From Candidatus Cloacimonadota bacterium (lineage in GTDB: Bacteria; Cloacimonadota; Cloacimonadia; Cloacimonadales; TCS61): a stretch of 6,826 nt of DNA. The notes beneath the pieces are model-generated. The model ran no database searches, was not told the origin of the DNA, and saw only the letters and a list, made by a program, of their open reading frames with translations. The DNA lies in contig DAOUVH010000046.1 in NCBI GenBank assembly GCA_030667725.1, forward strand, positions 1-6,826, written 5' to 3'. The number at the start of each line of letters is the position of its first letter. Within the stretch, counting starts at the first letter, position 1. Below, in pieces: positions 1 to 6,826 of this stretch. The position numbers and the translations under genes were made by a program.

Positions 1-209
1 ATCTTAAGAATATTTTCGAAAACTTCCATACCATTTAATCCCGGTAATCTCATATCAAGTAAAACCAGATCAGGCATATTAGCTTTATATTTTGTAATTC
101 CTACCTTACCATTTCCAGCTATGATAGTTTCAAAACCTTCTTCTTTCAAGATCGTATTAAGTAGAAATTGCATATCCTGATTATCTTCAATGATCAATAT
201 TCTTTCCAT
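1..209 (-). CDS. Response regulator, N-terminal receiver domain (partial, runs off the left edge)
   Basis: The 69 visible codons form the first half of a CheY-like receiver domain. The start reads MERILIIEDNQDMQFLL, with the acidic pair Glu8-Asp9 that binds Mg2+. The phospho-acceptor is Asp52 in LVLLDMRLPGLNG, a standard beta3 end and loop. The conserved Thr and Lys of the domain and any output domain lie beyond base 1, so the effector type is not visible. The ATG is supported by an AAGGA Shine-Dalgarno at 219-223, inside the last codons of the kinase gene and 9 nt from the start. The gene begins 6 nt after the kinase stop, so the two are almost certainly co-transcribed and this is the likely phosphorylation partner. 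An NtrC/AtoC-like sigma54 activator would be a common partner for this kinase type, but that is a guess. Confidence 0.9.
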   Translation of the reverse strand, partial: MERILIIEDNQDMQFLLNTILKEEGFETIIAGNGKVGITKYKANMPDLVLLDMRLPGLNGMEVFENILK

Positions 210-215
210 ATTTTT

Positions 216-1673
216 TTATCCTTTTGTTTCTGTGATAATTGGAAGTTTCACAGTAATTTTTGTTCCAACACCAACTTCACTTTCCACGTCAACATCCCCA
301 TCATGAGCCGTGATAACTTGATAAACAAACGATAACCCTAAGCCTGTCCCCTCATCTTTTGTTGTATAGAACGGATCGAATATTTTCTCAATCTCATCAG
401 TGGATATCCCACATCCATCATCAGTAAATGTTATAACGATCTTGTTATTTCTCTTAGTGACTTTTATTGTAAGAACTCCCCCATGCGGCATGGCGTCATT
501 AGCATTTAATATAAAATTTAGGAAAGTTTGTTCGAACCATTTAGAATCCAGGTTGATCTGAGGGAGCTTCTCATCAATCATCAAATCGATCTTTACACCA
601 TTTTGTTTAATTCTTGCTTCAACAAGTTCAATTGCTCTTTTAAGAACGGCTGAGATACTCCCCATTCTCAGATCTAGTTCTCTGGGAGTTGCAAAATCCA
701 AGAGTTCTTTAATAATTTTATTTGCATTTTGAGAATTACGTAAAATGATCTCAAGATATTGAACAATTTGATCTGGAAGTTCATACTTCTTAAGACAATA
801 CTGAATTGAAGAGTTAATATTTCCGAGTGGATTTCTGATCTCATGAGCAATACCGGCAGCTAACTGGCCTACTCCTGCAAGACGTTCTGCACGCAGAAGA
901 CGTTTTTCTAATAACTTATGTGCAGTAATATCATGAAGTGAGGCAACAATTTTTTTTGATTGATCATTTGCATCAATTAGTACTTGGGAAATTACTGAGC
1001 AATAGACCACTTCGCCGTTATGATTATTCAATTCTATTTCTTGATCACGAATAGATCCCTTCTCATTATTCATTAGTAAAAAATAGGTTGCTTGCTGTTG
1101 TTTTGCAAAAAAATCTTGTATGGTCTTCCCCAGCAGATCTTTTCGCTTATGATCGCTCATCATTTCAATTGATGGGCTAATCTCAGTTATTTTTCCATCT
1201 AATTCTATTTCACAATAGACATCTTGAATATTATCGAAGATCCTTCTATATTTTTTTTCACTCTTCTTTAATGTCTGCTGCATTCTATGTTTATAAATTG
1301 CAAGCTCAATAACAGCTTTTAATTCACGTTCATCAAAAGGTTTGATAATATAACCAAACGGTTCGGCGATTTTTGATTTACTTATTGTTTTATCATCTGC
1401 ATAAGCTGTAATAAAAATAATAGGAATATCAAGAGAATAGTAGATCGTTTCTGCAGCAGTAAGTCCAGACATTTCGTCACCAAGCATAATATCCATTAAT
1501 ACAACATCTGGTTTTAATTCTTCTGCCCTTGGAATTGATTTTTCACCTGAGCGAACGATATCCAATATCTCAAATCCGCAATTCTCAGAAATTCTGGCAA
1601 TATCCTGAGCAATGATCATTTCATCTTCAACTATCAGAATCCTTATGATATCTTTTTCAAGATTCAAATTCAT
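216..1673 (-). CDS. Hybrid sensor histidine kinase, REC-PAS-HisKA-HATPase_c
   Basis: A 485-residue soluble kinase with no membrane segment or signal peptide, so it should act in the cytoplasm. Domains in order: a receiver domain at about 9-128 (acidic Glu16/Asp17, phospho-acceptor Asp61 in VLMDIMLG, Thr89, Lys111 in IIKPF); a short coiled linker; a PAS domain at about 138-254; a HisKA dimerisation helix with the H-box His277 in GIAHEIRNPLGNI; and an ATPase domain at about 375-480 with the N-box Asn390/Asp393, the G1 box DDGCGI (418-423), the F-box FDPFYTTK and the G2 box GTGLGL (442-447). All catalytic motifs are intact. The ATG has an AAGGG Shine-Dalgarno at 1681-1685, 7 nt upstream. The N-terminal receiver means the kinase can itself receive phosphate, as in a phosphorelay, while the following gene supplies a separate receiver. 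The PAS ligand is unknown. No promoter hexamers with good spacing were found for it in 1674-1910. Confidence 0.95.
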   Translation of the reverse strand: MNLNLEKDIIRILIVEDEMIIAQDIARISENCGFEILDIVRSGEKSIPRAEELKPDVVLMDIMLGDEMSGLTAAETIYYSLDIPIIFITAYADDKTISKSKIAEPFGYIIKPFDERELKAVIELAIYKHRMQQTLKKSEKKYRRIFDNIQDVYCEIELDGKITEISPSIEMMSDHKRKDLLGKTIQDFFAKQQQATYFLLMNNEKGSIRDQEIELNNHNGEVVYCSVISQVLIDANDQSKKIVASLHDITAHKLLEKRLLRAERLAGVGQLAAGIAHEIRNPLGNINSSIQYCLKKYELPDQIVQYLEIILRNSQNANKIIKELLDFATPRELDLRMGSISAVLKRAIELVEARIKQNGVKIDLMIDEKLPQINLDSKWFEQTFLNFILNANDAMPHGGVLTIKVTKRNNKIVITFTDDGCGISTDEIEKIFDPFYTTKDEGTGLGLSFVYQVITAHDGDVDVESEVGVGTKITVKLPIITETKG

Positions 1674-1910: not shown

Positions 1911-2362
1911 ATGAAAAGTTCTCAAGAATTTATTGAATTAACAGCTCGATTACAGAAACTCTTCCATGATAGAGATAATTCATATACACTATGTGTTGTT
2001 ATCGGAAATATTGAATGTGCATTATTACGATTTCTGCATAAAATAAACCACCCTCTCAGGATGCGGGAAATTGCAAAAATGTATGAGATTTCCAATGCAA
2101 AAGTTACACGCGTACTGAATAGACTTGTTCAAATGGGATTTGTTGAGAGATATCATTCTGAAAATGATCGTCGCAGTTTGTATGCCCGCATCACTGATGA
2201 AGGAAGCAAATTGCTGAAAACACAAAATATAAGTTGAACAAATTCCAGCAGGAAGTTTTGGAATTGATCCCTGAAGAAGAGATCGATACGACCTATAAGT
2301 ATCTTAAATTATTTGTAGATACTTATGAAAAAGTAATAACTGATTCCACAGAAAGAACTTGA
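1911..2362 (+). pseudogene. MarR-family transcriptional regulator with an apparent single-base frameshift
   Basis: From the ATG at 1911 (AGGAAG Shine-Dalgarno at 1900-1905, 5 nt spacing) the frame runs 108 codons to a TGA at 2235-2237. It contains a MarR-type winged helix: helix-turn-helix at about 48-76, with the recognition helix around SNAKVTRVLNRL, then GFVER, then a wing with the Asp86-Arg87 pair in ENDRRS and ITDEGSKLL. MarR proteins then need a long C-terminal dimerisation helix, which is missing in this frame. It is present in another frame: from 2219 the bases encode NTKYKLNKFQQEVLELI and go on through YKYLKLFVDTYEKVI to a TGA at 2360-2362. Adding one A to the A-run at 2217-2220 (or 2224-2227) restores about 150 residues, the normal family length. 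As written, the product would lack half its dimer interface. No convincing -1 slippery heptamer is seen, so a real deletion or a sequencing error in the A-run are the main options. The gene faces away from the kinase and converges on hdrB. Confidence 0.85.
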
Positions 2363-2393: not shown

Positions 2394-3272
2394 TTAAAAT
2401 AAAATTTCGGGAGAAATAAAGTTGGATTCCCAGCCTAGTTTCTCCTTTTCTATATCAAATGCTACACCCATCAATTGGCTGAAATAAACAATAGGTATTG
2501 TTTCAAATTCCGGATCTTTTTCTTTTATATCTTCCTGCCGGGTATCCAAATTGAAAGCACAGAGCGGACATGAAGTAATTATTACATCTGCTCCATTTTT
2601 ACGTGCATCCTCAATGATTCCTTTAGAGAGATTGACCACTATATCTTTATTATTTACAGTATGATAACTGCCACAACACCTGCTACCACTGTTCCATTCA
2701 ATTGCTTCAGCACCCAATGCTACGATGAGTTCCTGTAGAATCTTTGGATCTTCAGCATCATCTATTCCGACCTCTTTAGGACGCAATAGCATACAGCCAT
2801 AATATGGAGCTACTTTCAGATCTTTCAATGGTTTCTTTACCTGCTTGGTTACAGTCTCCCAGCCTAATTCACGAATAATAGGCAACAAATGTACAACCTC
2901 AACACTACCATCATATTTTGTTTCTTCACGATGCATGAAATCATTGATCTTCTGCAGATCATCAGGATTTTTCTGCATACGTTTATTGGAAAGACTGAGT
3001 GTATTGTAGCACATCGAGCACAATGTAACCAGCCGGTTTTCATTTTCCACTATACCAGATGCATTCATTTCCTGTACACGCAGGAAATTTCTAACCGGTG
3101 CCATATGCTTCATTAGGTCATCACTAACCAGATAGGAAACAACTCCACAGCAATTCCAACGATCGAGTTCCACCATTTCTATTCCAAGTTTTTTTGCAAC
3201 TTCCAAGGCAGGAATTTCCAAGTTTTTAGCAGTAGTTTTTAATGTACAGCCGGGAAAATATGGTATTTTCAT
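2394..3272 (-). CDS. hdrB: Heterodisulfide reductase subunit B (HdrB-like, two CCG domains)
   Basis: A 292-residue protein of normal HdrB length. It has two cysteine-rich CCG repeats: Cys9, Cys41-Cys42-Gly, Cys85 and Cys88 (CSMC), then Cys160, Cys199-Cys200-Gly, Cys235 and Cys238 (CPLC). In methanogen HdrB such sets bind two noncubane [4Fe-4S] clusters that cleave the CoM-S-S-CoB disulfide. All ten cysteines are present, so the active site looks intact. The spacing Cys42 to Cys85 (42 residues) is slightly longer than usual. The C-terminal tail (FISPEILF) is family-like. A bacterium is unlikely to use CoM/CoB, so the true disulfide substrate is unknown. The ATG is set by AAGGAG at 3280-3285, 7 nt upstream and overlapping the hdrC stop; another ATG at 3275-3277 is out of frame. 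It is the last gene of the hdrA-hdrC-hdrB operon, and its product should dock on HdrC in the cytoplasm. Confidence 0.95.
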   Translation of the reverse strand: MKIPYFPGCTLKTTAKNLEIPALEVAKKLGIEMVELDRWNCCGVVSYLVSDDLMKHMAPVRNFLRVQEMNASGIVENENRLVTLCSMCYNTLSLSNKRMQKNPDDLQKINDFMHREETKYDGSVEVVHLLPIIRELGWETVTKQVKKPLKDLKVAPYYGCMLLRPKEVGIDDAEDPKILQELIVALGAEAIEWNSGSRCCGSYHTVNNKDIVVNLSKGIIEDARKNGADVIITSCPLCAFNLDTRQEDIKEKDPEFETIPIVYFSQLMGVAFDIEKEKLGWESNFISPEILF

Positions 3273-3283
3273 TTCATGTCTCC

Positions 3284-3688
3284 TTATCCGGTAAATTTCC
3301 TGAAAGCTCCCACAATTGCAATCGAGGGTAGTTTCTTGGCTTCTTCTTTAGAAATCTTTTCAATATCAATAAAATCTATAGCTTCACGCAGTTTTACCTG
3401 GCGTAAAGCCTCAGATACTTTCGAAACATCCAGATCTCGTGGACACCGGACTGTGCAGGTGAAACATGAAGCACAGATCCACATTGTTTTGCTGTCCATG
3501 ATATCCTTTTGCCCCAGCATTACCTGACGCATGATCTGTGAAGGTGTAACATCCATTTCAGTAATGAATGGACATCCACCCGAACAGGTCCCGCACTGCT
3601 CACAAAGAGTGATTATTTCACCACTTAATTCCGTGATCTTTTCGAGGAATTCTACACCTTTATCATCAAGCTTTATAATCTTTGCCAT
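3284..3688 (-). CDS. hdrC: Heterodisulfide reductase subunit C (HdrC-like, two [4Fe-4S], short form)
   Basis: A 134-residue ferredoxin-like subunit that passes electrons between HdrA and HdrB. It has two CxxCxxCxxxCP motifs: Cys29, 32, 35, 39 (CEQCGTCSGGCP) and Cys72, 75, 78, 82 (CASCFTCTVRCP), each binding one [4Fe-4S] cluster. The stretch between them (TPSQIMRQVMLGQKD and MWICASC) is typical of HdrC. The protein stops at KLPSIAIVGAFRKFTG, which matches the point where typical HdrC proteins (about 180-190 residues) still have a C-terminal tail. The stop is followed at once by the hdrB ribosome site, so no hidden continuation in another frame fits. The start overlaps the hdrA stop by one base (TAATG), with a GAGGTG Shine-Dalgarno in the last hdrA codons, which indicates translational coupling. 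Clusters are intact, so it should be functional despite the short tail. Confidence 0.95.
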   Translation of the reverse strand: MAKIIKLDDKGVEFLEKITELSGEIITLCEQCGTCSGGCPFITEMDVTPSQIMRQVMLGQKDIMDSKTMWICASCFTCTVRCPRDLDVSKVSEALRQVKLREAIDFIDIEKISKEEAKKLPSIAIVGAFRKFTG

Positions 3689-6075
3689 TATTCACCTCTC
3701 ACTGCTGTAAAAAGTTTAGCTTTTATTTCCCGTGGGATAGGCTCTAAAGTCCCTAGAAATTCCGCTATTGCATCTACATCATTTATGAATTGAGCTAAAG
3801 CACCTGCATTGTACTCTTTAAAAATTATTCTTTCAGTTTCGATCTGTAGATCATCCAACGTTTTTTGAACCTGATTAATGTTGTCTTTTGTTACATTGTT
3901 TGCCCAGCCAAAGCGGGAGCTCTTTTCAGGGCTATCACCGATCATCACTGCATCAGCTCCTTTTGATAGTGCAAATCTTATCAAGTTGGAAGTCATCCTG
4001 CTACCGCTTGGAATCCGGAAGATTCTAGTATCGGTAGAGTATTTCATCTTTCGAACTCCACAAGCATCTGCCAGACGGTAAACAGTGTTATCATCAGCAA
4101 AGATCAGGATTCTCTTCTCACCTTCTTTTTTATTACTGAGAGAAGCTTCGATCTGCGCATACATCTGGTCATTTGTGTAATAATTCAAATCGATTGCTTC
4201 AATTGGACAACTTGCTATGCAGCTTCCACAACCAAGACAGAGAGCCTCATTTACTTCAGCTTTACCTTTTGCATTTAGCGAAATAGCTTGTTTAGGACAA
4301 GCATCCAGACATTGTTTGCAACCGTCACAAATATCCTGATGTACAAAAGCCAATATAGGATCGATGGAGAATTCTTTTTGAGCCAAAGTTGCCAGAACAC
4401 GTCCGGCAGCAGCACTGGCTTGTGTTACTGTATCGGGAATATCTTTGGGTCCTTGCGCTGTTCCAGCCAGAAACACACCTTCGATCAAAGTATCGACCGG
4501 ACGGTATTTAGGATGTGCCTCTTTGAAGAAACCATCTTCGCTCTTAGCCAGTTTCAAATTATCGGCAATATTTTCGGAAGCTTTGCTTAATCCCATACCA
4601 TTTGCCAAGACCACCAGATCAAATTCACTTTGGATAATATCACGAGAAAGTGTATCTTCTACTGTCACTGTAACCTGTTTTGTTTCGGGATCTTCAGTGA
4701 AGTGAGAAGGTTTTCCTCTCACAAATTTGATTCCCATTTTCTGAGCCCGTTTATAATATTCTTCATAACCTTTGCCAAAAGCTCGAAGATCTGTGTAGAA
4801 TATATAAATATCTGATTCTGGTTTTGCCTGTTTCAACAGTGAAGCCAACTTGACAGAGAACATACAGCACACGCGGGAGCAATATTCGCGACCGATCTGC
4901 TCATCTCTGGAGCCAATACATTGCACAAATGCAACCCTTTTTCCTACTTCCCTCGGTGGTTCTTTTTCGGAAATGTGATCTACAATTCGTTCCATTTCCA
5001 AAGCTGAAACTACATTTTTATATTTCCCATAACCAAAAACAGTCTTTTCTGTTGCATCATAAATATCGTAACCGGTGGCTACTACCACGTTATCTACGGC
5101 TATATTAATGAATTCGGCTTTCTGTTCAAAATCTATAACTTTCTGCGGACAAATTTCAGCACATTTACTGCAGGAACCATCTTTGAAATGCAAACAATTT
5201 TCTTCATCAATTAAATATTTATATGGAATTGCATGAGGAGCCGGTATGTATATCGCTTTACGATTCATTATTCCCTGCTCCCAAAAATTTGGTTGTTCTA
5301 TCGGACACTCCTGTACACACTGAGTACAAATAAGGCATTGATCCATATTGATGGAATCGAGAATAAAACGCGGGTTTTTCTTGATCTTTGCTTCAAAGTG
5401 TAGTCTGTGTCCGGCAATGCTTTCAATTTCAGAGTTTGTATAAAGAGTGATGTTTGGATGATCTTGTACAGCAGCCATTTTGGGCGAAATAATACAGGCA
5501 GAACAGTCTTCTGTTGGGAAGGTTTTGGTCAGGATCGCCATCATCCCGCCCAAGGTAGGTTTTCTTTCAACCAGGATCACTTTTTTTCCTGCATCCCCAA
5601 GATCGAGAGATGTTTGGATGCCTGCAATACCGCCACCTATCACTAGAATTTCATCTCCCATCTGCATCTTTTTTTCTTCTAATGGAAAATCCAATTCTAC
5701 TTTGGCAATGGAAGCGTCGATAATATCTTTGGCTTTTTCAGTAGCTACTTCAGGAGCATTCTTATGAGCCCAGGAGCAATGTTCACGGAAGTTCGCAATT
5801 TCCAGAACATACGGATTTAATCCAGCTTTCTGTAGAGTAGCACGAAAAGTTTTTTCATGAAAATGAGGAGAGCAAGCAGCAACAACAACTTTCTCTAGTC
5901 TATGTTTCTTAATATCTTCAATAATCAATTTCTGACCAGCACCGGAGCACATATGAGAGTTCTCCTGGATCAGGATATCGCTTTTCTTTTCTTTTACATG
6001 CTCTGCAATTTTTTGGAGATCAATGGTATTAGATATGTTCCCACCACATTGACAAAGATAGACCCCAGTTTTCAT
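3688..6075 (-). CDS. hdrA: Heterodisulfide reductase subunit A fused to a cysteine-less MvhD/FlpD-like domain
   Basis: A 795-residue flavo-iron-sulfur protein, the likely electron-bifurcating or confurcating hub. An N-terminal HdrA domain (1 to about 135) has Cys8, Cys10, Cys43, Cys68 and Cys100. A thioredoxin-reductase-like FAD domain starts with GGGIAG at 147-152 and includes Cys191/Cys194. An inserted ferredoxin has Cys247, 250, 253, 257 and Cys294, 302, 305, 309. Cys386, 399, 403, 404 with Lys409 form the noncanonical cluster and flavin-side motif described for methanogen HdrA. A C-terminal ferredoxin has Cys583, 586, 589, 593 and Cys613, 616, 619, 623. Residues about 654-778 then align with MvhD/FlpD, the [2Fe-2S] subunit that passes hydrogenase or formate dehydrogenase electrons to HdrA. 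Here all expected cluster cysteines are replaced. The ATG has AAGGAG at 6085-6090, 9 nt upstream. No in-frame TGA suggestive of selenocysteine is seen; the CC at 403-404 is cysteine. It is the first gene of the hdrACB operon, overlapping hdrC by one base. Confidence 0.96.
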   Translation of the reverse strand: MKTGVYLCQCGGNISNTIDLQKIAEHVKEKKSDILIQENSHMCSGAGQKLIIEDIKKHRLEKVVVAACSPHFHEKTFRATLQKAGLNPYVLEIANFREHCSWAHKNAPEVATEKAKDIIDASIAKVELDFPLEEKKMQMGDEILVIGGGIAGIQTSLDLGDAGKKVILVERKPTLGGMMAILTKTFPTEDCSACIISPKMAAVQDHPNITLYTNSEIESIAGHRLHFEAKIKKNPRFILDSINMDQCLICTQCVQECPIEQPNFWEQGIMNRKAIYIPAPHAIPYKYLIDEENCLHFKDGSCSKCAEICPQKVIDFEQKAEFINIAVDNVVVATGYDIYDATEKTVFGYGKYKNVVSALEMERIVDHISEKEPPREVGKRVAFVQCIGSRDEQIGREYCSRVCCMFSVKLASLLKQAKPESDIYIFYTDLRAFGKGYEEYYKRAQKMGIKFVRGKPSHFTEDPETKQVTVTVEDTLSRDIIQSEFDLVVLANGMGLSKASENIADNLKLAKSEDGFFKEAHPKYRPVDTLIEGVFLAGTAQGPKDIPDTVTQASAAAGRVLATLAQKEFSIDPILAFVHQDICDGCKQCLDACPKQAISLNAKGKAEVNEALCLGCGSCIASCPIEAIDLNYYTNDQMYAQIEASLSNKKEGEKRILIFADDNTVYRLADACGVRKMKYSTDTRIFRIPSGSRMTSNLIRFALSKGADAVMIGDSPEKSSRFGWANNVTKDNINQVQKTLDDLQIETERIIFKEYNAGALAQFINDVDAIAEFLGTLEPIPREIKAKLFTAVRGE

Positions 6076-6182: not shown

Positions 6183-6826
6183 TTACCATAATTCTAATGC
6201 TTCATTCAACATAGCCAATTGCTGCTCTTCTTTGTAACCAAGCTGCTGCATTGCTCCTGAAGGACAAATTGATGCACAGCTTCCACAACCCTTACATAGG
6301 GCAGAATTAACATAGGCATATTCTTTACCGTTCATCCAAATAAGCTCTGGAGCACCATAAGGACAAACAGATACACACATTCCACAACCGGCACATGTAT
6401 CCAGATCGACCCGAGCTATATTTGCTTCCGAAAGATATTCTTTGGAACTAATGATCGCGCATGCCCGTTCTGCTGCAGCTTTAGCCTGCGAAATTGTATC
6501 TTCCATTCCTTTAGGTGAATGAGCCAATCCTGCCATAAATATACCTTCAGCTGAAAAATCAACCGGTCGAAGTTTCACATGTGCTTCCATAAAGAACTTA
6601 TCTTCATTGAGCGGTATTTTTAACATTTGCGATATGGTGTCAACATCTTCTTGCGGTACAATTGCAGGTGACAGTATAATCTTTTCAGGATTCAGGATTA
6701 CATCAATTCCCAGAACATGATCCTTAAGTTTAATTATCAACGCATTCTCTCCAAAAACAGTTTTTTTACTATCAATATCGATCTCAGGTTTAGCATCTTC
6801 GGAATAGCGAATGAAAACTACCCCTA
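6183..6826 (-). CDS. hdrA: Second HdrA-like protein, C-terminal part (partial, runs off the right edge)
   Basis: The frame is open to the window edge. The 213 visible codons begin GVVFIRYSEDAKPEIDID, which is typical mid-HdrA sequence, so the TTG at 6738-6740 is an internal Leu codon and not a start. The end of the FAD domain is visible (FFMEAHVKLRPVDF, GIFMAGLAHSPKGMEDTI), matching the same segment of the downstream HdrA (FFKEAHPKYRPVDT). A C-terminal ferredoxin follows, with CAGCGMCVSVCP and CKGCGSCASICP, eight cysteines for two [4Fe-4S] clusters. It ends normally (GYKEEQQLAMLNEALELW) with no MvhD-like extension, so it differs in architecture from its neighbour. The N-terminal domain, FAD-binding motif and possible extra domains are outside the window. 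The 107-bp gap to the next gene holds that gene's promoter. It may be a second bifurcation module of the same complex or a paralog with another partner. Confidence 0.93.
   Translation of the reverse strand, partial: GVVFIRYSEDAKPEIDIDSKKTVFGENALIIKLKDHVLGIDVILNPEKIILSPAIVPQEDVDTISQMLKIPLNEDKFFMEAHVKLRPVDFSAEGIFMAGLAHSPKGMEDTISQAKAAAERACAIISSKEYLSEANIARVDLDTCAGCGMCVSVCPYGAPELIWMNGKEYAYVNSALCKGCGSCASICPSGAMQQLGYKEEQQLAMLNEALELW

Follow-up and report, generated by a model that had tools for sequence, protein, structure and literature searches.

The 6,826-nucleotide contig DAOUVH010000046.1 of a Candidatus Cloacimonadota bacterium (assembly GCA_030667725.1), here called in its whole length the window, encodes on its minus strand an HdrA to whose C-terminus an MvhD/FlpD domain is fused, and this domain has lost all five of the cysteines expected of it. 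That the result is an MvhD domain without a [2Fe-2S] cluster is, going by sequence, near certain. The cysteine-free state occurs in several separate places among related HdrAs, and appears to be one which selection maintains. As to what the domain may do, the reading favored here, at a probability of somewhat under one half (about 0.48), is that it would serve as a structural plug of the mobile arm of HdrA in an Hdr-linked fumarate reductase, i.e., as closing the hydrogenase-type entrance.

Window positions 3742 to 4116 (minus strand) translate as exactly residues 654-778 of this HdrA, and the belonging of these residues to MvhD/FlpD, as proposed in a preliminary description of the sequence, is borne out by Pfam, the FlpD profile matching residues 656-773 over profile positions 1-118 of 123 (E 4.7e-20; 72.3 bits versus a cut-off of 22.3). 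The fold is retained as well, as judged from that match along with structure predictions, with the models built from alignments that include canonical HdrA or MvhD rows, such that agreement in fold is not fully independent. The domain was folded separately because a structure search with full-length HdrA returned HdrA and other flavoproteins. Six solved MvhD-type sequences were found, and all five whose alignments were inspected possess cysteine at the columns of residues 661, 664, 690, 715, and 720; the window possesses none. The nearest known systems include MvhD of HdrABC-MvhAGD (5odc), that of the Fdh-Hdr-Fmd complex (7bkb), and, from Elp-Hdr, ElpC (8rvu). Replacement of every cluster-site cysteine, that is, was correctly described. 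The serines at 690 (the MCSGR cysteine) and at 715 and 720 (the two cysteines of GCxxxxC) are confirmed by codons and alignments, and replacement within the first motif holds for 661 and 664, but residue 660, which had been counted as a further lost cysteine, is no conserved cysteine position: in 55 five-cysteine domains it is Leu in 32, Cys in 11, Ala in 5, Val in 4, Phe in 2, and something else in one. Cys672 is indeed the sole cysteine of the domain.

Relatives were compared with the window as loci, genomes, and proteins (labeled L, G, and P, respectively), and 116 distinct FlpD domains were gathered from them, these not being a random sample. Five-cysteine domains, meaning those with Cys, or presumed selenocysteine read as Cys, at all five positions, number 55. 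Another 23 retain only C664 and C715 (the two-cysteine form), 32 have none of the five along with Asp at 661, four have none along with Ser at 661, and two are odd or partial. Residue 661 of the 55 degenerate D-type domains is Asp in 53 and Asn in two. Residue 667 is Arg or Lys in 54 of these 55 versus none of the 55 five-cysteine domains, and residue 714 is Asp or Glu in all 55 where the five-cysteine domains all have Gly. A natural guess from these substitutions is that D661, R/K667, and D/E714 form a salt-bridge set in the place of the former cluster. Cys672 is found in 29 of the 32 no-cysteine D661 domains, these 29 constituting the query clade, with Val instead in L083, L011, and L088.

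The earlier argument that an intact reading frame speaks against decay is upheld by ratios of nonsynonymous to synonymous substitution rates (dN/dS), which indicate purifying selection. Ten pairs were run, three having an undefined core or domain value; in six pairwise comparisons of the window, L001, L002, and L003 with one another the domain gives 0.05-0.17 and the HdrA core 0.02-0.03, values that are rough because synonymous distances often exceed 1. Over residues 655-672, the former loop that held two ligands in five-cysteine forms, the six pairs give 0.00-0.04; the short C-terminal tail is less constrained than the remainder of the domain. Among the 29 query-clade domains, which share C672, entropy in the loops (659-668, 686-693, and 711-721) is 0.35 bits versus 1.06 elsewhere, none of 5000 random position sets were as low, and D661, R667, and D714 are fixed or almost fixed. 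Decay can be rejected upon low dN/dS in combination with near-invariant loops, and what these sequences suggest instead is that the cysteine-free state is maintained by selection.

The remainder of the protein is recognizably HdrA, with FAD domain, inserted as well as C-terminal ferredoxin domains, and N-terminal cluster cysteines. It matches HdrA of the Protein Data Bank (5odc_A) with E 4.3e-201, is 47% identical to 8rvy_A upon structural alignment, and has as its best NCBIfam model HdrA2, NF040770 (870.9 bits over residues 2-780, below the cut-off of 1100). Of its 28 cysteines, 26 are at positions which are invariant or nearly so in a 51-row HdrA alignment, leaving just C100 and C672, and the C-terminal ferredoxin domain retains eight of eight. 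K409 and E362 align with K409 and E356 of the solved enzyme and are both retained, with Lys409 and Glu356, at the flavin, having been tied to bifurcation (PMC12054007). HdrA2 of Methanosarcina acetivorans (HdrA2B2C2) likewise is an HdrA-MvhD fusion with the same order of domains, from which the window HdrA differs, as compared via the NCBIfam model rather than by sequence, in its missing motif and a score under the cut-off. Methanosarcina HdrA2 interacts with F420 and ferredoxin (PMC5296606), which provides a precedent for soluble partners.

A tree of the HdrA core (57 rows; residues 1-645, i.e., with the FlpD domain excluded; unrooted) places all D-type fusions, apart from P0037 with its long branch, in a single supported set (40 rows, being 39 fusions plus L104u), and this lineage is seen under several phylum names. 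Trees were made by a quick method, support being from the Shimodaira-Hasegawa-like approximate likelihood-ratio test (SH-aLRT), and some of the outgroup rows are long-branched. HdrA fusions that share these substitutions do form a clade, as the preliminary description had considered, but the no-cysteine state is found in several separate places within it: the query clade (15 rows), L083, and L011 together with L088. In a 47-row tree, which omits nine long-branched or distant rows (P0037, L024u, L017u, L018u, L018b, L023b, L021f, L094f, and L097f) and, as tenth of the 57, L104u, the fewest changes to the no-cysteine state are three, and a single clade for all 18 no-cysteine D-type rows is rejected by the approximately unbiased test (p 9.6e-32), the group having been defined after inspection of the tree. 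No domain of the D-type set lacks only one of C664 and C715, their absence being always joint, for which reason the pair may be read as functionally joined, whether as disulfide or as shared ligand. As these trees carry no root, we infer the direction of the steps, namely that the two-cysteine pair was lost rather than regained.

Outside of the 40-row set, P0037, a 743-amino-acid HdrA fusion on a long branch with D-V-S-Y-M at the five positions, may be a further independent loss. An S-G-S-S-S form is present in five genomes (G096, G112, G118, G123, and G126), with four more proteins from the protein database. In the core tree these HdrAs group with unfused HdrAs, distant from the D-type set, a position which makes them look like a separate fusion followed by a separate loss.

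What accompanies these HdrAs points to fumarate. HdrC and HdrB come after the D-type HdrA wherever the contig extends. Twenty-five D-type loci were inspected, the window included, of which four end early (L009, L015, L083, and L109), and in 12 of the 21 that are informative frdB and frdA-like genes are found downstream (L005, L006, L007, L008, L011, L014, L022, L104, L107, L108, L112, and L114), with two genes between hdr and frd genes in L104 and with frdB of L011 identified upon follow-up inspection. Genes for 2-oxoglutarate:ferredoxin oxidoreductase (Kor), succinyl-CoA synthetase, and fumarase flank many D-type loci. This neighborhood suggests that HdrABC in these relatives may be part of an Hdr-linked fumarate reductase complex.

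The FrdA-like protein of L008 has as its best NCBIfam model TfrA, of thiol:fumarate reductase (E 3e-96; 323 bits, below the 718-bit cut-off), and its motifs HPTG, TE, HY, and NRL.GNS align with E. coli SdhA, at residues which we take to be those of substrate site and catalysis. Unlike TfrAB, HdrA, HdrC, and HdrB are here separate genes beside FrdB and FrdA; coenzymes M and B are not expected in bacterial hosts. The same L008 protein (14389-16053) carries Asn in place of a histidine of E. coli SdhA, presumably that of covalent FAD attachment, which suggests that its FAD is non-covalent. A Celaenobacter-type cluster, consisting of thiol:fumarate reductase, 2-oxoglutarate oxidoreductase, fumarase, succinyl-CoA synthetase, Mvh, and Hdr (PMC8542988), keeps gene company like that of many D-type loci. 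A detailed example of such an operon is L066, in which HdrA is unfused and a separate five-cysteine MvhD is present along with hydrogenase genes, unlike the fused, cluster-less domain of the D-type; most D-type loci, again unlike that cluster, have no hydrogenase gene alongside. Within the portions of the literature available to us, which did not extend to the Appel et al. 2021 review of HdrA(BC), no description was found of an MvhD domain without cysteines, nor of a bifurcating Hdr fumarate reductase.

In solved complexes MvhD or ElpC is located in a mobile arm along with the N- and C-terminal domains of HdrA, its [2Fe-2S] cluster being the last center before the flavin and the C-terminal cluster of HdrA serving as shuttle, with 25 Å in the Elp-Hdr structure from MvhD-type cluster to HdrA flavin, to be crossed ‘by an unknown mechanism’ (PMC12350162). 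Under the favored reading, HdrA, HdrC, and HdrB would together be the flavin-bearing core of a soluble complex that splits (or joins) electrons. Its high-potential branch in the relatives would run probably from HdrA FAD via HdrC, HdrB, and FrdB to FrdA and thereby to fumarate/succinate, and its low-potential branch would involve ferredoxin made or used by Kor. The fused, cluster-free domain would keep the arm built while filling the seat of a hydrogenase- or formate-dehydrogenase-linked MvhD; with that seat filled, the outside entrance would be shut, and a two-electron partner would then have to reach the HdrA flavin by another route.

A candidate for that partner in the window organism is found immediately upstream, namely the HdrA-type protein which, in its only complete near relative, is joined to an NADH module. 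That is, hdrACB stands behind another HdrA-type gene in the window, L001, L002, and L003, with the 213-amino-acid fragment in the window being 92% identical to the end of a 1097-amino-acid NuoG-2Fe2S/double-HdrA protein of L001. This gene is complete in L001 alone, where it encodes two HdrA modules along with a 2Fe2S domain of NuoG type and has NuoE- and NuoF-like genes farther upstream; in L004 the corresponding gene encodes an NAD(P)H domain of GltD type and is several genes off. Energetically, it would make sense for electrons from NADH to be divided between fumarate and ferredoxin, and the reduced ferredoxin could be used by Kor operating reductively. Fusions of this kind are seen as well at L001 1301-10511, with NuoE- and NuoG-type parts fused to HdrA pieces (proteins of 299 and 1097 amino acids), and in G004 (L061 10503-14951), where an open reading frame (ORF) of 1483 amino acids joins HdrA modules to a GltD-type NAD(P)H domain.

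Several arrangements among relatives are informative as to how a closed and an open entrance might coexist. MvhA-like proteins of at least 59% identity are present in 11 of 30 genomes (G004, G006, G010, G011, G012, G079, G096, G113, G118, G121, and G126), such presences and absences being read from metagenome-assembled genomes, which are incomplete. The four no-cysteine D-type genomes among these (G004, G006, G011, and G121) also possess stand-alone MvhDs with all five ligand positions filled, as would be needed if the fused domain is closed. Four of the five S-G-S-S-S genomes have the emptied fused HdrA beside an unfused HdrA and a five-cysteine MvhD (L105, L110, L111, and L113), and in G121 (L104 6550-11602) a fused no-cysteine HdrA and a second copy from which the domain is absent, 93% identical to each other (597 of 642 residues), flank a five-cysteine MvhD. 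Both arrangements fit an HdrA dimer with one entrance open and one closed. In anaerobic methanotrophic (ANME) archaea, tandem and fused HdrAs have been proposed to act as heterodimers (PMC9012536), and there, too, the partners have lost cluster sites in a complementary manner. G012, in turn, has one run of genes for Kor, a second Kor, HdrC, HdrB, unfused HdrA, five-cysteine MvhD, FrdB, FrdA, hydrogenase MvhG and MvhA, SucCD, and fumarase, which, going by its gene content, is a hydrogenase-linked version of the same idea, like that reported for Celaenobacter (PMC8542988).

A broader and more doubtful proposal is that the cluster-less MvhD domain might have been selected repeatedly as a gate of soluble, Hdr-based bifurcating fumarate reductases, with at least two HdrA lineages emptied, one of them in steps that ended in three separate losses. 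In an HdrA dimer, either one half or both would thereby have the hydrogenase entrance closed but the shuttling arm kept, and bifurcation would proceed without an MvhD cluster. These are natural HdrAs from which exactly the MvhD cluster site has been removed with the ligands of other centers kept, and they therefore bear on transfer from MvhD cluster to flavin. Should they still bifurcate, then the MvhD cluster would be dispensable and the mechanical role of the arm separable from electron carrying. Gene company suggests, in addition, that Cloacimonadota and other groups have a fumarate reductase which is soluble and possibly flavin-bifurcating, and, if so, then two redox steps of the tricarboxylic acid cycle, fumarate/succinate and 2-oxoglutarate, would be energetically tied together.

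A number of observations weigh against the plug. A clean association between loss of cysteines and absence of hydrogenase was not borne out, with MvhA found in 4 of 13 no-cysteine D-type genomes (G001-G009, G011, G013, G075, and G121 having been considered) and in 3 of 11 two-cysteine genomes (G010, G012, and G079); as hydrogenase presence does not separate the two, the odds of the favored reading are slightly lowered. In G004 hydrogenase genes adjoin frdA. In G126 (L106 7712-15980) they are in the very gene run of the no-cysteine HdrA, with no unfused HdrA or five-cysteine MvhD at that locus and no other FlpD in that assembly, which could reflect either the genome itself or a gap in its assembly. 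Of the 21 informative D-type loci, two have hydrogenase mvhG downstream (L010 and L136), both of the two-cysteine form, and seven have neither frdBA nor mvhG there (the window, L001, L002, L003, L004, L012, and L013). No frd genes adjoin hdr in the window, and in its near relatives G001, G002, G003, and G013 frdBA is on other contigs, with Tenebribacter-type genomes having Kor-FrdBA-SucCD-fumarase genes without hdr (G001 L069, G002 L070, G013 L071, and G003 L072/L073). The upstream HdrA-type protein is rejected as general partner because orthologues of more than 70% identity exist in just 10 of 23 genomes (G001-G005, G008, G075, G094, G099, and G101), and the full NADH module stands beside the HdrA-type gene in L001 only. 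Lastly, loops are better conserved than the remainder also in two-cysteine (0.95 versus 1.71 bits) and five-cysteine domains (0.97 versus 1.70); this conservation thus is in part a family trait, as the contrast is shared, at higher entropy, by domains with cysteines. The separate idea that the two-cysteine form still takes electrons from hydrogenase is weakened by a further HdrC/HdrB/HdrA set after the hydrogenase genes in L010/L135 and L136, given which a separate MvhD may lie beyond the known sequence.

That same loop conservation, along with new charges in 53 to 55 of the 55 degenerate D/N661 domains and with frdBA as gene neighbors, could be viewed from a different perspective, with the emptied site being a surface for docking or ligand binding (e.g., of FrdB/FrdA, a nucleotide, or a cofactor) and D661, R/K667, and D/E714 a new functional site, beyond packing. 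This we consider unlikely, though of real weight. An HdrA that does not bifurcate but is instead a Kor-fed ferredoxin:fumarate oxidoreductase would have no need of an entrance for a third partner, and Kor genes are indeed upstream in L005, L007, L008, L009, and L022, with Methanosarcina HdrA2B2C2 possessing Fdx:CoMS-SCoB activity (PMC5296606). It would retain K409 and E362 to little end, however, these being the residues tied to bifurcation (PMC12054007), and is rather improbable. Such a route, moreover, would be energetically wasteful, which counts against it as well.

Might the domain instead still hold a cluster or other redox center, using oxygen ligands (Asp661, Thr664, Ser) or cysteines of another subunit? 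The two-cysteine form could in principle do so with C664, C715, Asp/Asn661, and Ser/Thr690, and joint absence of C664 and C715 is what would be expected of co-ligands, or indeed of a disulfide. The window form, however, has none of five cysteines, with only C100 and C672 outside of the conserved cysteine positions of HdrA, and we know of no all-oxygen ligation of a [2Fe-2S] cluster, making this very unlikely. A functionless relic, heading for deletion, is more improbable still: the G121 copy of HdrA without the domain speaks for it, but the low dN/dS, the near-invariant loops of the 29 query-clade domains, and retention under several phylum names are all at odds with it.

The window reads on its minus strand, 5' to 3', as the end of the second HdrA-type gene, HdrA, HdrC, HdrB, a sensor-kinase-like gene, and the start only of a response-regulator-like gene (for coordinates, see Table 1). 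HdrB has both of its CCG cysteine motifs intact (C9, C41C42, C85, C88; C160, C199C200, C235, C238). Nearest relatives carry the Cloacimonadota label, HdrA of Candidatus Tenebribacter mawsonii being 91% identical.

Table 1. Coordinates of genes, domains, and residues within the window
Feature	Position	Strand	Basis
Second HdrA-type protein, C-terminal 213 aa, truncated by window edge	6183..6824	-	ORF and profile matches
HdrA with fused C-terminal MvhD/FlpD domain, 795 aa	3691..6075 (stop 3688-3690)	-	ORF
HdrC (start shares one base with HdrA stop)	3284..3688 (3287-3688 without stop)	-	ORF and profile matches
HdrB	2394..3272 (2397-3272 without stop)	-	ORF; Pfam CCG, E 8.7e-23
C-terminal two-[4Fe-4S] ferredoxin domain of HdrA, residues 576-629	4189..4350	-	Fer4_21; invariant C583-C623
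MvhD/FlpD domain without cluster cysteines, residues 654-778	3742..4116	-	ORF translation, Pfam
Asp661 (GAT); Cys in five-cysteine MvhD group	4093..4095	-	alignments, codon
Thr664 (ACT); Cys in five-cysteine and two-cysteine groups	4084..4086	-	alignments, codon
Arg667, new basic residue beside former cluster loop	4075..4077	-	domain comparison
Cys672	4060-4062	-	translation
Ser690 (AGC) at MCSGR cysteine	4006..4008	-	alignments, codon
Asp714, new acidic residue	3934..3936	-	domain comparison
Ser715 (AGC) at first GCxxxxC cysteine	3931..3933	-	alignment, codon
Ser720 (TCC) at second GCxxxxC cysteine	3916..3918	-	alignments, codon

Stand-alone MvhDs of Cloacimonadota-labeled genomes (G001-G007, G009, and G013) are worth a separate word. 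Each of these genomes has two to three such genes, with one in-frame TGA per gene, beside further HdrA-type genes (L032, L034-L037, L039-L041, L048-L056, L059, and L060). In the stand-alone MvhDs that were read, the TGA is at the ligand position equivalent to 715, and probably it encodes selenocysteine, which has been reported for MvhDs of Desulfobacterium autotrophicum (PMC2702500).

Beside the hdr operon of the window there are, as named by eye, a response regulator/histidine kinase pair at 3-1673 (minus strand) and a small MarR-like regulator at 1911-2237 (plus strand). Genes resembling these come after the hdr operon in L001 as well.

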